Shown: one piece after another, positions 37,282 to 40,886 of the stretch | How the letters are laid out: the number at the start of each line of letters is the position of its first letter | Numbering within the stretch: position 1 is the stretch's first letter | DNA from: Bacteroidales bacterium | GTDB lineage: Bacteria; Bacteroidota; Bacteroidia; Bacteroidales; UBA932 | Assembly (NCBI GenBank): GCA_024401855.1 | Contig: JAKSKH010000020.1 | Location: forward strand, 1 to 40,886 | DNA: 40,886 nt | Direction of reading: 5' to 3' | Translations under genes and position numbers: made by a program | The notes under the pieces: model-generated | Database searches by the model: none | The model's input: only the letters and a program-made list of their open reading frames with translations | Told to the model about the DNA's origin: nothing

Positions 37282-37319
37282 GCAAAGTTAAAATATTGTC
37301 GGGGATTTTGTATCTTTGC
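37282..37319. promoter_or_regulatory. Divergent -7 elements, HAD gene and tRNA-Leu
   Basis: Minus strand TAACTTTGC (37290-37282) serves the HAD gene. Plus strand TATCTTTGC (37311-37319), identical to the -7 element of the rRNA promoter, serves the tRNA gene. Clear -33 boxes are not seen. Confidence 0.6.
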
Positions 37320-37322
37320 GGT

Positions 37323-37348
37323 GCGGACCCCGCAGGGTTCCGGTCCGC
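37323..37348 (+). other. Hairpin in tRNA-Leu 5' leader
   Basis: GCGGACC (37323-37329) pairs with GGTCCGC (37342-37348), a perfect 7-bp stem that occupies almost the whole precursor leader and ends 4 bases before the tRNA. It may shield the 5' extension before RNase P processing; that is inference. Confidence 0.5.
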
Positions 37349-37386
37349 TTCTGCCTTGGTGGTGGAATGGTAGACACGAGGGACTT

Positions 37387-37781
37387 AGACAAGCTCTTTG
37401 AGATAAATGATTTGTAAAACACGCAGATTATACTTAACTTTAAGTATTACAATAATTGTATGAGAAAGGTTTCGTATAGTCTTGATGATGTCAGGAAAGC
37501 TGTCATAGAAAACAAATCTTCAGCCGGTTTGTCCGAATTGCCATGCTTTAACAAATTATTACCGAGGAAGAGCAACATTGAGTGCTCGCTCTGAAAAGAG
37601 AGAAGTAGAATGTCGTAAATTCAAGGAAGCCTTAACGGATAATGCCGATGGTAATCTTGAGCCAAGCCTTCAGGATATGAAGGAAGGTGCAGAGACTAGA
37701 CACGACACACCTAAAACGAAAGTCATGGTGAAGGAATAGTCCGGACCACAAACGAGAGGTGGCGAAAGCCATAGTGGCAAG
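37387..37781 (+). ncRNA. Group I self-splicing intron (IC3-like) in tRNA-Leu anticodon
   Basis: 395 nt inserted after U34, the same site as in cyanobacterial and plastid tRNA-Leu(UAA) introns. P1: exon CUU pairs with GAG at 37400-37402, giving the required U.G pair at the 5' site. The UUU just before it (37397-37399) can pair with the exon-2 AAAA (P10). The core contains TTGAGCCAAGCC (P4/P5 start), a perfect P5 hairpin CCTTC/GAAGG (37667-37671/37679-37683) and GGTGCAGAGAC. P7 is GACTA/TAGTC (37694-37698/37737-37741), P8 CACC/GGTG (37708-37711/37727-37730). P9 is CCAC/GTGG, with a GGC-GAAA-GCC hairpin inside. The last base is G (37781). P7 differs from the Anabaena GACUC/GAGUC by a compensatory change. 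An extra hairpin (37430-37447) and an HNH remnant sit in the 5' half. Base composition is more A/T-rich than the flanking genes. Confidence 0.9.
37460..37739 (+). pseudogene. HNH homing endonuclease remnant inside the intron
   Basis: From ATG 37460 a frame reads MRKVSYSLDDVRKAVIENKS, like the N-terminal segment of intron-encoded HNH endonucleases, then runs into TGA at 37592. Shifted by +1, from 37530, a second frame reads CPNCHALTNYYRGRAT, the typical C-terminal half of the HNH/zinc ribbon motif. That frame continues through ECRKFKEALTDNADG into the intron core, as such ORFs often do, stopping at TAG 37737-37739. The ~100 central residues including the first zinc pair are gone. A deletion plus frameshift has destroyed a former homing enzyme. 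The N-terminal match is weaker than the C-terminal one. Confidence 0.7.
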
Positions 37782-37824
37782 AAAATCCCTTGGGCAGTAA
37801 TGTCCGTGTGAGTTCGAGTCTCAT

Positions 37825-37835
37825 CCGAGGCACAG
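37825..37835 (+). repeat. attL-like core: tRNA-Leu 3' end
   Basis: CCGAGGCACAG, the acceptor 3' strand plus three bases, is repeated exactly at 40005-40015. Over the 23 bases ending here, 18 match the downstream copy, the match reaching back to the T-loop TCGA. This is the usual direct repeat left by tyrosine-recombinase integration into a tRNA 3' end. Confidence 0.65.
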
Positions 37836-37840
37836 AATTA

Positions 37841-37878
37841 AGAGCTAACTTATTGATTTTCAATGGTTAGCTCTTTTT
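37841..37878 (+). terminator. Terminator after tRNA-Leu
   Basis: A perfect 9-bp stem AGAGCTAAC/GTTAGCTCT (37841-37849/37866-37874), with inner ATTGA/TCAAT pairing possible, is followed directly by T5. By the integration model this terminator came with the inserted element. Confidence 0.88.
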
Positions 37879-37883
37879 GTATC

Positions 37884-38495
37884 TCAATTTTTGGCGACAT
37901 TTTGGCGACTTAGTCCCTGACTTGGTCCCGACTTGGTCCCTGCTTGGTGCATTTGGAAAAGCGTTGTTAAGCGCTCTAGATACTCCCGTCTCCTCACCGG
38001 CGTGGTAACCATCTCCCTGGCCTTGCGGAAGCAGCGGCGGACCCAGAGGATGTCGTCCTCGTTCTCGTCACGCCCCCAGTCCTTATCGGGAGCGGAGCCT
38101 CCGCCTCCGCAGTTTTGCGCGAAGGTGGTGGCGGTATCGACTTGATTGGTAAAGAGAAGAAAGGCAGTTTTGAAGATATTGTTGCTCTCTTCCCGCGGAA
38201 AAGATTGTTCTACTTCTCTACTCTCTTCAGCGAAGACCCGTGCAACTCTTCCGGGAACCATCTGTTCAGAGCTTGTTCCATCCACTGTGATAACAAAGGG
38301 AAAAAGATAATTCAGGCCGTCATCGGATAGCATAAATGCGACGCGCTCCTTTGGTGCCATCTGTCCGTATCTCTTCTCCGGACGCATCTTCTCCCAGGTT
38401 TCCCGAATCCGTGAAGGTGTCAGACCGCGACCGATAACAGATGACTTATACACGGAGTTTCCGCTCTGGAGCCTCTTATGGACTACGCAAAGCAA
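37884..38495 (-). pseudogene. Element gene fragment, mobilization-protein-like C-terminus
   Basis: A 203-residue frame with no ATG at its 5' end (TTG at 38495; a stop lies six codons further up) and no promoter. It is therefore probably a 5'-truncated gene. Residues ~130-165 carry CGGGGSAPDKDWGRDENEDDI...WVRRCFRKAREM. A Gly run followed by a WGR/acidic/RRC segment is reminiscent of the tails of Bacteroidales relaxase/mobilization proteins. The rest I do not recognise. The last ~18 codons are made of short tandem repeats. It lies between the att repeats, fitting a degraded mobilizable element. Confidence 0.45.
37889..37941 (+). repeat. Short tandem repeats beside attL
   Basis: Two copies of TTTTGGCGAC(A/T) (37889-37910) run into three copies of GACTT(A/G)GTCCC (37907-37918, 37919-37929, 37930-37941), followed by a partial GCTTGGTGC. 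Arrays like this next to an att core can be arm-type integrase binding sites; that role is inferred from position only. Confidence 0.6.
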
Positions 38496-38580: not shown

Positions 38581-38589
38581 TATTTTTGC
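38581..38589 (+). promoter_or_regulatory. -7 element of fic
   Basis: TATTTTTGC, an exact TAnnTTTGC match, 14 bases before ATG 38604. Confidence 0.65.
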
Positions 38590-38603
38590 AAAAAACATGG
38601 CGT

Positions 38604-39668
38604 ATGAATTTGGAAGAGACATACAAAGCATGGCGCGCTTTACAGCCACTTTCATTGAAGGACAGGGATCGGCTGAGCCGTAAATTCACCGTGGAATTCA
38701 ATTATAACAGCAATCACATTGAAGGAAATACGCTGACCTATGGGCAGACCGAACTCCTGTTGCTGTTCGGTAAGGTTGTCGGTGAGGCCGAGATGAAAGA
38801 CTTTGAGGAAATGAAAGCCAGCAACGTCGGACTGATGATGATGAAAGAGCAAGCCTCTTTGAAGGACAAAACTCTAACGCAAACATTTATCCGGCAGCTG
38901 CATCAGACTCTTCTTCGTGAGGACTACACGGTTTACCGAACTCTCCCGGATGGTACTGTGACAAGCTATGTCATCCATGCTGGATGTTATAAGACACGCC
39001 CCAATAGTGTCATCACCCGTTATGGTGACCGATTTGAGTATGCTGCACCGGAAGAGACAACAGCGTTGATGACAGACTTGGTGGATTGGTATAATCAAGC
39101 AGAAGTCTCAGGCGAATACACTCCGGTCGAACTGGCTGCTCTCTTCCACTATAGATATATCAGGATTCATCCATTTGAGGATGGGAACGGACGAATAGCA
39201 CGCCTATTGGTCAATTTCATCCTTGCCCGCCATGGTTATCCGATGGTTGTCGTTCGGAGCCGGAACAAGAAAGATTATCTTGAAGCACTGCACCAGGCTG
39301 ACCTTGTAGTTGGACCTGTACCAAGTGACGGTTCGCACGCCAGTATCCGTGAAGCACGCAAGTTTGTGAACTGGTTCAAGAAGATGGTGACAGAAGAAAT
39401 TCAGAATGACATTGACTTTATTCAAACCCGGGAACCGAACATCTGGTGGTATGATGGCCAACGTATTCTATTCAGAAGCCCTAACTCGGGAAAGATTTTG
39501 AATTTGCTGATCGCAGACCCTGGAATCACCATCGCGGCACTGGCCAAGACAATAGGTATCAACACTTCTGCAATTCAGAAACATCTGAAGTCCATGTCTG
39601 ATAAGGGATACATTGCACGCAGGGAAAAAGACGGGGAATGGGATGTATTTATTATCCCATCAGCATAA
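38604..39668 (+). CDS. Fic-domain protein (class II) with winged HTH
   Basis: 354 residues from ATG 38604; the frame opens earlier but the promoter fixes this start. Fic enzymes usually transfer AMP from ATP to a hydroxyl of a target protein. The inhibitory helix motif SxxxEGN (SNHIEGN, ~residue 36) lies N-terminal, defining class II. The catalytic loop HPFEDGNGRIAR (~residue 188) is complete, with the His and all nucleotide-binding residues. Residues ~290-354 form a winged HTH (LIADPGITIAALAKTIGINTSAIQKHLKSM...KGYIARR). It sits alone inside the tRNA-Leu island, exactly bracketed by inverted palindromes. The target protein is unknown; it may be a regulated modifier or solitary toxin-like gene. 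Confidence 0.93.
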   Translation: MNLEETYKAWRALQPLSLKDRDRLSRKFTVEFNYNSNHIEGNTLTYGQTELLLLFGKVVGEAEMKDFEEMKASNVGLMMMKEQASLKDKTLTQTFIRQLHQTLLREDYTVYRTLPDGTVTSYVIHAGCYKTRPNSVITRYGDRFEYAAPEETTALMTDLVDWYNQAEVSGEYTPVELAALFHYRYIRIHPFEDGNGRIARLLVNFILARHGYPMVVVRSRNKKDYLEALHQADLVVGPVPSDGSHASIREARKFVNWFKKMVTEEIQNDIDFIQTREPNIWWYDGQRILFRSPNSGKILNLLIADPGITIAALAKTIGINTSAIQKHLKSMSDKGYIARREKDGEWDVFIIPSA

Positions 39669-40287: not shown

Positions 40288-40886
40288 CTATACTCTCATT
40301 CTCCTATGAAGAAGGTCGATGTACGAGGACTTGAGTTCTTCTGACAGGAAAGAATTCTGTATTTCCTCTTCAAACTTAGGGAGAATGTCAACGTACTTCT
40401 TCTTAATCCTGTCGAATACAATTTCAGGAACGCCACAAGTCTTGAATACAGCGATGAAGTCTGAGTCTTTGATGTGTTTCTTTTTTCCATTAAGGTTCAG
40501 GGCCAATTCTTCATCATCAGCGGGATTGCTTATGGCAGCGCTTAACAGATCATATGCGGGAGAAAGAACTGGTTCGCCGGATGGAGAATACAGAGAGAAG
40601 TTCTTCAGATGCATGTCGTTATTCCCGGTAAGCCAGGAGAAATACACCAGCTCCAGGAAATCTACCATGTCCAATTGAGGGATGGCAGAGTATTTCCGGA
40701 TGGCTTTCCCGATCTGCTCGTATGAGCTCCGGTATTTATGCTCTGTCTGCCGCTCCGTAAGTTGGCACATGTCTTCCATAGCTATTTTCTCTCCGTTTTT
40801 CGTTCGGTCAATACGCTTAGTCAGGTAGCCGATGCTGCCGTCCTTCATCCGGATAAGTGAATGAGGAACGATTTTCAGTCTGGCGA
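40288..40886 (-). CDS. HipA-family serine/threonine kinase toxin, C-terminal part
   Basis: The frame is open to the right edge, so the 5' part is outside the window; about 199 residues are visible. The segment VPHSLIRMKDGSIGYLTKRIDR matches the HipA lobe linker, GNNDMHLKNFSL is the catalytic loop (Asp and Asn) and LSPAYDLL is the metal-binding DFG equivalent. HipA toxins phosphorylate glutamyl-tRNA synthetase or other targets and are neutralised by HipB-like antitoxins. In Bacteroidota such short HipA_C proteins often sit beside a separate HipA_N protein and HTH, which would lie upstream outside the window. Confidence 0.88.
   Translation of the reverse strand, partial: ARLKIVPHSLIRMKDGSIGYLTKRIDRTKNGEKIAMEDMCQLTERQTEHKYRSSYEQIGKAIRKYSAIPQLDMVDFLELVYFSWLTGNNDMHLKNFSLYSPSGEPVLSPAYDLLSAAISNPADDEELALNLNGKKKHIKDSDFIAVFKTCGVPEIVFDRIKKKYVDILPKFEEEIQNSFLSEELKSSYIDLLHRRMRV

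Follow-up and report, generated by a model that had tools for sequence, protein, structure and literature searches.

The window analysed in this study, a 40,886-nt stretch of a Bacteroidales genome, carries at positions 37353–37832 (+ strand) a tRNA-Leu(UAA) gene interrupted after U34 by a group I intron, and this identification is confirmed. We put at roughly 80 % the probability that this is an intron of homing ancestry, which would since have been immobilised. With less assurance, we also favour the view that its lineage entered the host family, which we take to be UBA932, from the tRNA-Leu(UAA) genes of large phages. The intron is of a known kind, tRNA-Leu(UAA) introns being familiar chiefly as an ancient trait of cyanobacteria and plastids; what is new is the host range and the decayed HNH passenger, and the link to phage tRNA genes was unexpected.

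The 5′ exon (37353–37386, +) ends in GGGACUU, up to U34, and the 3′ exon (37782–37832, +), delimited by its match to other genes and by ARAGORN with introns allowed, starts with AAAAUCC; in DNA letters, the junction reads ...GGGACTT^AAAATCCC. Between the two exons lies an intron of 395 nt (37387–37781, +), in agreement with the insert of about that length after U34 described in an earlier note made from the sequence alone. The covariance search proposed there gave a match to the group I intron family RF00028 above its gathering score (53.0 bits against 50; positions 37569–37764; model positions 1–253; E=7.8e-11 over the window). RF00028 alone among Rfam families exceeded its cut-off in the window, and it was the sole Rfam match up to E=1 within 37300–37900. 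The joined exons, which the note had wished to see tested as a tRNA, were 100 % identical to four uninterrupted genes typed as Leu(taa) by ARAGORN. Its expectation that tRNA finders may miss or mis-split the gene was also borne out: default ARAGORN reported zero tRNAs in the window, and ARAGORN with introns allowed mis-split the gene and typed it as Ser(AGA) or Leu(TAG).

Most of the group I signals named in the note were recovered, all on the + strand. The internal guide GAGU (37580–37583) pairs with exon ACUU (37383–37386) to form P1, with U37386·G37580 at the 5′ splice site, and the intron ends with G37781. P3 (37611–37616 with 37702–37707) shows two-sided changes in all six pairs. It is accompanied by P4 (37621–37625 with 37656–37660), a P5a hairpin CGG/CCG (37636–37647), P6 with a P6a hairpin (37661–37688), P7 (GACUA 37694–37698 with UAGUC 37737–37741), a P8 hairpin (37708–37730) and a P9 region (37746–37777) with a GAAA-capped hairpin (37760–37771). 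U·G, P4/P5, P7, P8, P9 and the terminal G were thus present, but P10 was weak, at about 2 bp by eye. By its core motifs, the intron would be IC3-like; the core wording of the Azoarcus tRNA-Ile(CAU) intron is similar.

Covariation was analysed in an alignment of 54 introns, composed of 28 host-family rows (the window included; one row, L057, has wrongly set ends) and 26 others, mainly from Proteobacteria and Acidobacteria, with pairing scored on a hand-drawn P1–P9 structure. Across the 54 sequences, 97.7 % of paired cells could pair, compared with 81.3 % after shuffling and at most 41.1 % in slid controls, and both sides changed in 36 of 54 pairs. The covariation score was 0.430, compared with 0.138 for shuffled and at most 0.099 for slid alignments. 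U-G was present at the 5′ splice site in all 52 scored rows, two rows being gapped, and the window intron kept every residue invariant in the 54 sequences. P7 itself was nearly invariant, with one of its five pairs compensated, in a single row. These results are strong evidence that the P3–P9 core, including the P3/P7 pseudoknot, is conserved and backed by compensatory change. Since the core structure is conserved, the pre-tRNA most likely splices itself to a functional tRNA: guanosine would attack after U34, and the exons would join as CUU^AAAA, restoring the anticodon UAA. In the third pair of P5 (e.g. in L057 and L063), A-C and G-U alternated jointly by eye, the letters reading GGAAACC..GGCAAT or GGAAGCC..GGTAAT, as if an A·C pair substitutes for G·U.

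The host genome (2.03 Mb in 67 contigs, 85 % complete, 2.5 % contaminated) gave one group I match and 36 matches to RF00005, 34 of them above the cut-off. ARAGORN typed Leu(CAA), Leu(TAG), Leu(CAG) and Leu(GAG) among these loci, none more than 64 % identical to the joined exons of the window. The other tRNA-Leu(UAA) gene for which the earlier note had asked was not found among the 36 tRNA matches of this 85 %-complete genome. These data bear on the reading that the intron is dead and the locus a pseudogene, with UUA and UUG read by another tRNA. The Leu(CAA) gene speaks for it, though it could read UUG only, and the finding of a single UAA gene in this incomplete genome, the retention of all invariant residues and the identity of the joined exons to intronless genes of other species make this reading very improbable. 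Downstream of the tRNA, 38586–39668 and 40288–40848 encode a Fic-domain-like protein and a HipA-like kinase fragment, as judged by eye. No att-like copy of the 3′ exon of 14 nt or more was detected elsewhere in the window.

Next to the single intron of this genome, we set the distribution of such introns in the genus, Candidatus Cryptobacteroides. RF00028 was matched in 126 of 400 genus genomes, of which 112 had loci with both exons, 7 had the 5′ exon only, at a contig end, and 7 had matches elsewhere; the intron was thus located in tRNA-Leu(UAA) in 119 of 400, and 100 further stretches of the genus were included. Among the 112 fully bounded copies, 67 were shorter than 300 nt, 11 were remnants of 305–451 nt, the class into which the window intron falls, and 34 were of at least 563 nt. 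The exon junction read ACGAGGGACTT^AAAATCCCTTGG in 115 of 125 host-family introns, and the insertion site was constant across the family. Intronless genes with at least 84 % identity to the joined exons of the window, counted from matches spanning the junction, were present in at least 138 of the 400 genomes. All 30 intronless loci examined, chosen as the most similar to the exons of the window and not at random, were uninterrupted tRNA-Leu(UAA) genes by ARAGORN, the four with 100 % identity among them. Both forms were found in five of the 400 genomes (G047, G082, G153, G221 and G240), perhaps from contamination.

Within the host family, RF00028 was matched in 26 of 249 genomes and 5 of 25 genera; the corresponding counts were 4 of 295 for the order and 26 of 296 for the phylum, the three draws overlapping with the genus set. 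The intron is therefore a polymorphic element of the genus and of other genera of the host family, not an isolated oddity. The earlier note knew of no established report in Bacteroidales. In open-licence papers, no group I intron in tRNA-Leu of Bacteroidetes or Bacteroidota was found, nor any relevant report of an intron in Cryptobacteroides, a weak indication of absence. An assembly artefact or contamination of the metagenome-assembled genome would fit the incompleteness, contamination and fragmentation of the host assembly. Its probability is negligible for the window, and for the lineage it is already refuted: rodA is again found beside the tRNA in further genomes (RodA matched at 45 loci), the intron is present in 119 of 400 genus genomes, and JAGHSA010000006.1 (Candidatus Cryptobacteroides onthequi) carries it, with a 1-kb stretch identical to a locus of the same genus, on which the genus name rests. 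At one site in one genus, HNH-bearing, decayed, HNH-free and empty alleles thus occur together, making gain, decay and loss traceable over hundreds of species, and, judging from ARAGORN on the window, this tRNA may be missed or misnamed in a genus in which so many genomes carry the intron.

Some further loci of the genus deserve mention. One genome, G207, has five group I matches (labels L038, L067, L068 and L069), of which L068 is the Leu(UAA) intron and the four others lie on one 203-kb contig, two of them typed as tRNA-Gln by ARAGORN. An exact 54-nt copy of the tRNA-Leu 3′ half was found at G159:C5:34694–34747, and many intron-bearing contigs end shortly downstream of the tRNA; these two observations suggest that the tRNA-Leu gene serves as an integration site for mobile elements.

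About 180 extra nt in L1 of the window intron represent the decayed remains of a gene for an HNH homing endonuclease, a feature absent from the earlier note. The insert is closed by a stem (GCUCUU 37393–37398 with AAGAGC 37568–37573, +), and similar arms were seen by eye in the long introns. The N-terminal piece, MRKVSYSLDDVRKAVIENKS (37460–37519, +), is comparable to the ORFs of L144 and L156, and the C-terminal piece, ending in VCPNCHALTNYYRGRA (37509–37574, +), lies in a different frame. The His-His...Asn part is missing, the two out-of-frame fragments leave no intact ORF, and the window intron lacks about 330 nt compared with the 725-nt introns. In the long introns, the P1 loop contains an ORF of the type ...LEIHHINGxNTDNRLENLxLLCPNCHALTNNYRGRA, open from Met to YRG in 30 of 37 long host-family introns (27 of 34 in the genus and 3 of 3 in other genera). 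Two open HNH ORFs matched phrog_10822 (E=1e-41 and 6e-45). Scores of the relatives' ORFs with the Pfam HNH_3 and HNH models lay near the cut-offs: the L144 ORF reached 25.2 bits for PF13392 (cut-off 24.8) and 23.8 for PF01844 (21.4), and the L102 ORF reached 25.4 for PF13392, no other Pfam HNH model passing.

Pairwise identity among five HNH proteins was 35–52 %; that of L144 was 50 % identical to that of L247, from another member of the Bacteroidota, and 35 % identical to that of phage L375. The HNH gene appears to share its history with the ribozyme only in part, because the order of these identities disagrees with the ribozyme tree and the insertion loops differ. Values of dN/dS (NG86) were obtained for 16 of 150 sampled pairs, two of them usable, with synonymous sites saturated; the claim for the HNH gene is therefore restricted to the 58 invariant columns of the 153 in its alignment. 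The HNH frame continues through the ribozyme core; we also considered whether selection maintains this overlap and rejected the idea, since the same frame stays open over 30 codons or more in 76 of 77 HNH-free host-family introns and in 75 of 92 named-set introns of up to 290 nt, some Bacteroidales among these; the overlap is thus a by-product of the core. Under the homing reading, L1 would formerly have coded for an HNH endonuclease, now two fragments, leaving the window copy immobile. The open HNH of the relatives would cut intronless tRNA-Leu(UAA) at its anticodon-loop sequence, and the intron would be copied into the cut gene through repair. Such HNH-driven homing is probably at work in the full-length relatives.

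A pattern scan of named genomes gave at least 120 stretches, with tRNA-Leu(UAA) interrupted after U34 in Alpha-, Beta- and Gammaproteobacteria, Acidobacteria and Bacteroidales, the classes being partly assigned from genus names; three of the 120 listed loci, in which no 5′ splice site was found, were left out. Introns of this set outside the host family were at most 270 nt long, too short to hold the HNH gene. The same insertion site is also occupied in other Bacteroidota, and tRNA-Leu(UAA) introns are thus widespread outside cyanobacteria. Many RF00028 matches in Bacteroidota lay inside tRNA genes, namely Leu(UAA), Arg(UCU) and an initiator-Met-like tRNA (the last by eye), and two matches in genus g6 were unlike tRNA introns. 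In other Bacteroidota, tRNA-Arg(UCU), the initiator-Met-like tRNA (by eye) and Ile(UAU) (by ARAGORN) are group I intron hosts (L225, L228–L230, L233, L234, L245; L231, L237, L241, L248–L250; L220). Two Elusimicrobia introns (L276 and L329) are inserted one nucleotide earlier, apparently after U33 by eye, as is the 724-nt tRNA-Leu(UAA) intron L247 (G1087), which contains an HNH gene. A plasmid search with the core of the window intron gave four Bradyrhizobium records, 62 % covered.

A core phylogeny of the kind suggested in the earlier note was run. Host-family introns formed one clade with respect to 100 other introns (support 100/100). This tree sampled 59 of 122 host-family rows; a first version with long-branch rows showed 13 changes of genus label, and eight rows were then left out. 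Proteobacterial tRNA-Leu(UAA) introns have the P7 and the site in common with the window intron, but belong to a separate clade (100/100) and do not exceed the length given above for the named set. With up to one mismatch, the P7/P3 signature was found in 1 of 315 class genomes (163 genera), the window's own. A bacterial sister group of the host-family clade may be unsampled, because the search patterns select a single P7 type and 120 stretches were analysed from the named-genome scan, which gave at least that number; the single class genome with the signature speaks against this.

Next, the intron was compared with its host genes, with RodA, encoded upstream of the tRNA and matched at 45 loci, as the host marker; an upstream HAD-like gene was dropped because it was matched in only 20 loci. 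The RodA tree, in which rows are often fragments, contained 44 loci, 30 with and 14 without the intron, one of them from another genus. Intron presence changed 11 times on this tree, at least seven changes being forced by well-supported branches, and shuffled presence gave a mean of 12.1 changes, with 146 of 500 shuffles as low as 11. For 26 taxa, the intron data rejected the RodA topology (log-likelihood difference 98.8, p-AU 1.8e-9), as they did for 14 taxa in which 150 or more RodA residues could be aligned (p-AU 0.020). Conversely, for these 14 taxa the RodA data fitted the intron topology worse, with a difference of 463 log units (KH/SH p 0; AU 0.152).

An intron history following the host species tree would agree with the single host-family clade and the constant insertion site, and the frequency of intronless alleles fits it as well. 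We regard it as distinctly improbable, in view of the conflict with RodA (in part for the 14 taxa), the unclustered presence, the P7/P3 signature confined to the window's genome among the class genomes and the persistence of open HNH genes. The traits of a mobile intron were found: alleles that lack the intron but have the same flanks, a patchy occurrence and conflict between intron and host trees. Lateral movement of the intron, one of the possibilities raised in the earlier note, is supported by these comparisons and by the relatives on viral contigs.

In searches of IMG/VR, a same-type pattern identified 38 viral contigs, with tRNA-Leu(UAA) in 32 of them by ARAGORN with introns allowed, and a pattern for the P7/P3 signature of the window identified 38 stretches, nine of them shared with the first set. 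HNH-motif ORFs were present in nine of the 38 signature-bearing stretches, and also in L375, which the motif search had missed; a peptide-pattern scan for HNH in viral contigs gave two relatives. The HNH proteins of L375 and L402 matched phrog_10822, and by eye the ORF of L375, L402 and L407 is located in L1, upstream of the internal guide. A terminase passed the cut-off in 7 of the 19 records examined, compared with 6 of 14 control genomes, and the T4-type capsid protein Gp23 in 5 of 11, compared with 0 of 14. Both were found in L380, L384, L385, L387 and L407; L385 and L387 carry an identical intron, so the five records may represent only four phages. The HNH-bearing L375 and L402 had no match to terminase or capsid. 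Proteins of the L385 and L375 loci contain T9SS sorting domains, which suggests that these phages infect Bacteroidota. The GTGC wording of the host family was absent from all 38 first-pattern contigs and present in five signature-pattern rows (L424, L426, L429, L432 and L435), in which the P3 letters differ and three of which lie outside any recognised tRNA.

We then built a tree of 121 introns, limited to the final 185 nt of the cores, with 36 host-family rows and a sample of bacterial rows. It omits 18 bacterial rows, which were long branches or Bacteroidota introns from tRNAs other than Leu, and five viral cores that seemed not to be in tRNA-Leu(UAA). The host family and the viral rows were separated from 40 other bacterial introns (100/99). 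Within this group, the host family (96/82) joined one viral row (100/95), the viral rows were paraphyletic, and the starred branches forced two changes of viral label. A group of the family with all 27 signature-bearing viral rows was absent from the best tree, though the test did not reject it (p-AU 0.327), and an earlier tree with 39 host-family rows and a sample of other bacterial rows grouped the family with 12 viral rows (100/99). As judged from these trees, the closest relatives found for the host-family introns are tRNA-Leu(UAA) introns on viral contigs.

Phages commonly acquire tRNA genes, and a transfer from Bacteroidota hosts into phages that merely pick up host tRNA genes would also agree with the putative Bacteroidota hosts of L385 and L375. 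We consider this direction unlikely, since the host family is nested among paraphyletic viral rows with a bacterial outgroup and two forced changes of viral label, and since the viral introns occupy varied tRNA bodies. Under entry from phages, the direction that we favour, the intron would have come from tRNA-Leu(UAA) genes of large phages, spread in the family and then repeatedly lost its HNH gene, or been lost itself.

Among known systems, the cyanobacterial tRNA-Leu(UAA) intron is likewise inserted after U34 and has IC3-like core motifs; cyanobacterial Leu introns are not known to contain endonuclease genes, whereas the host-family clade has an HNH gene in L1. An intron with the endonuclease I-Ssp6803I in cyanobacterial tRNA-fMet is said to have been described by Bonocora and Shub in 2001. 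It likewise interrupts a bacterial tRNA gene and comes with a homing endonuclease directed against an anticodon region, but differs in the tRNA and in the endonuclease, which is of the PD-(D/E)XK type, not HNH. A section of PMC4476775 places the cyanobacterial tRNA-Leu intron in most cyanobacterial genomes and in plastids, and part of PMC5733544 summarises its gain and loss; the window intron occupies the same gene in a different host phylum. In a passage of PMC4853749, tRNA-Leu(UAA) and tRNA-Arg(UCU) of Thiomargarita and Beggiatoa are interrupted, the former by a putative group I intron. These introns share the gene and the location outside cyanobacteria with the window intron, but their hosts are Gammaproteobacteria and that passage leaves their type undetermined.

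Sections of PMC11878797 and PMC12363816 concern phages, among them huge ones predicted to infect Bacteroides, whose group I introns contain HNH genes. Those introns lie in protein-coding genes, whereas the viral introns found here lie in tRNA-Leu(UAA) genes. A passage of a 2014 review (PMC3984707) states that all observed phage introns were in protein-coding genes, despite the many phage tRNA genes; the phage tRNA-Leu introns contradict that statement, and offer a possible vehicle for the intron. By ARAGORN, three deposited phages carry an intron in tRNA-Leu(UAA): LR756511.1 (595 kb; 700-nt intron), LR756501.1 (735 kb; 205 nt) and Agrobacterium phage Atu_ph07 (278 nt). In LR756511.1 (L411), the HNH gene lies directly before P7 and not in L1. 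A search of annotated phages with the core of the window intron gave 49 records, none with 80 % coverage and, in the best 25 of the 49, at most 40 %.

Part of PMC11878797 describes how the HNH of a phage intron nicks a gene of a competing phage, and this provides the model for a more tentative and rather doubtful reading, in which phage tRNA-Leu(UAA) genes shuttle the homing intron between phages and chromosomes. The HNH of an infecting phage would cut the host's single intronless tRNA-Leu(UAA) at the anticodon loop. If so, the cut would both spread the intron and disable a tRNA of the host, for which the phage supplies its own, and an intron in the host gene, even one decayed as in the window, would remove the target and act as an immunity allele.

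Two features of the viral tRNAs were noted in addition. The huge phages L411, L412 (LR756501.1) and L413 (Atu_ph07) include one isolate; in the Atu_ph07 stretch the intron-bearing tRNA-Leu(UAA) is unannotated, and the records of the two others carry no annotation. A short (class I) variable arm is unusual in leucine tRNA, and six viral loci (L379, L391, L392, L399, L404 and L410) have such an arm, as judged by eye, in tRNA genes that contain a related intron and the anticodon UAA.
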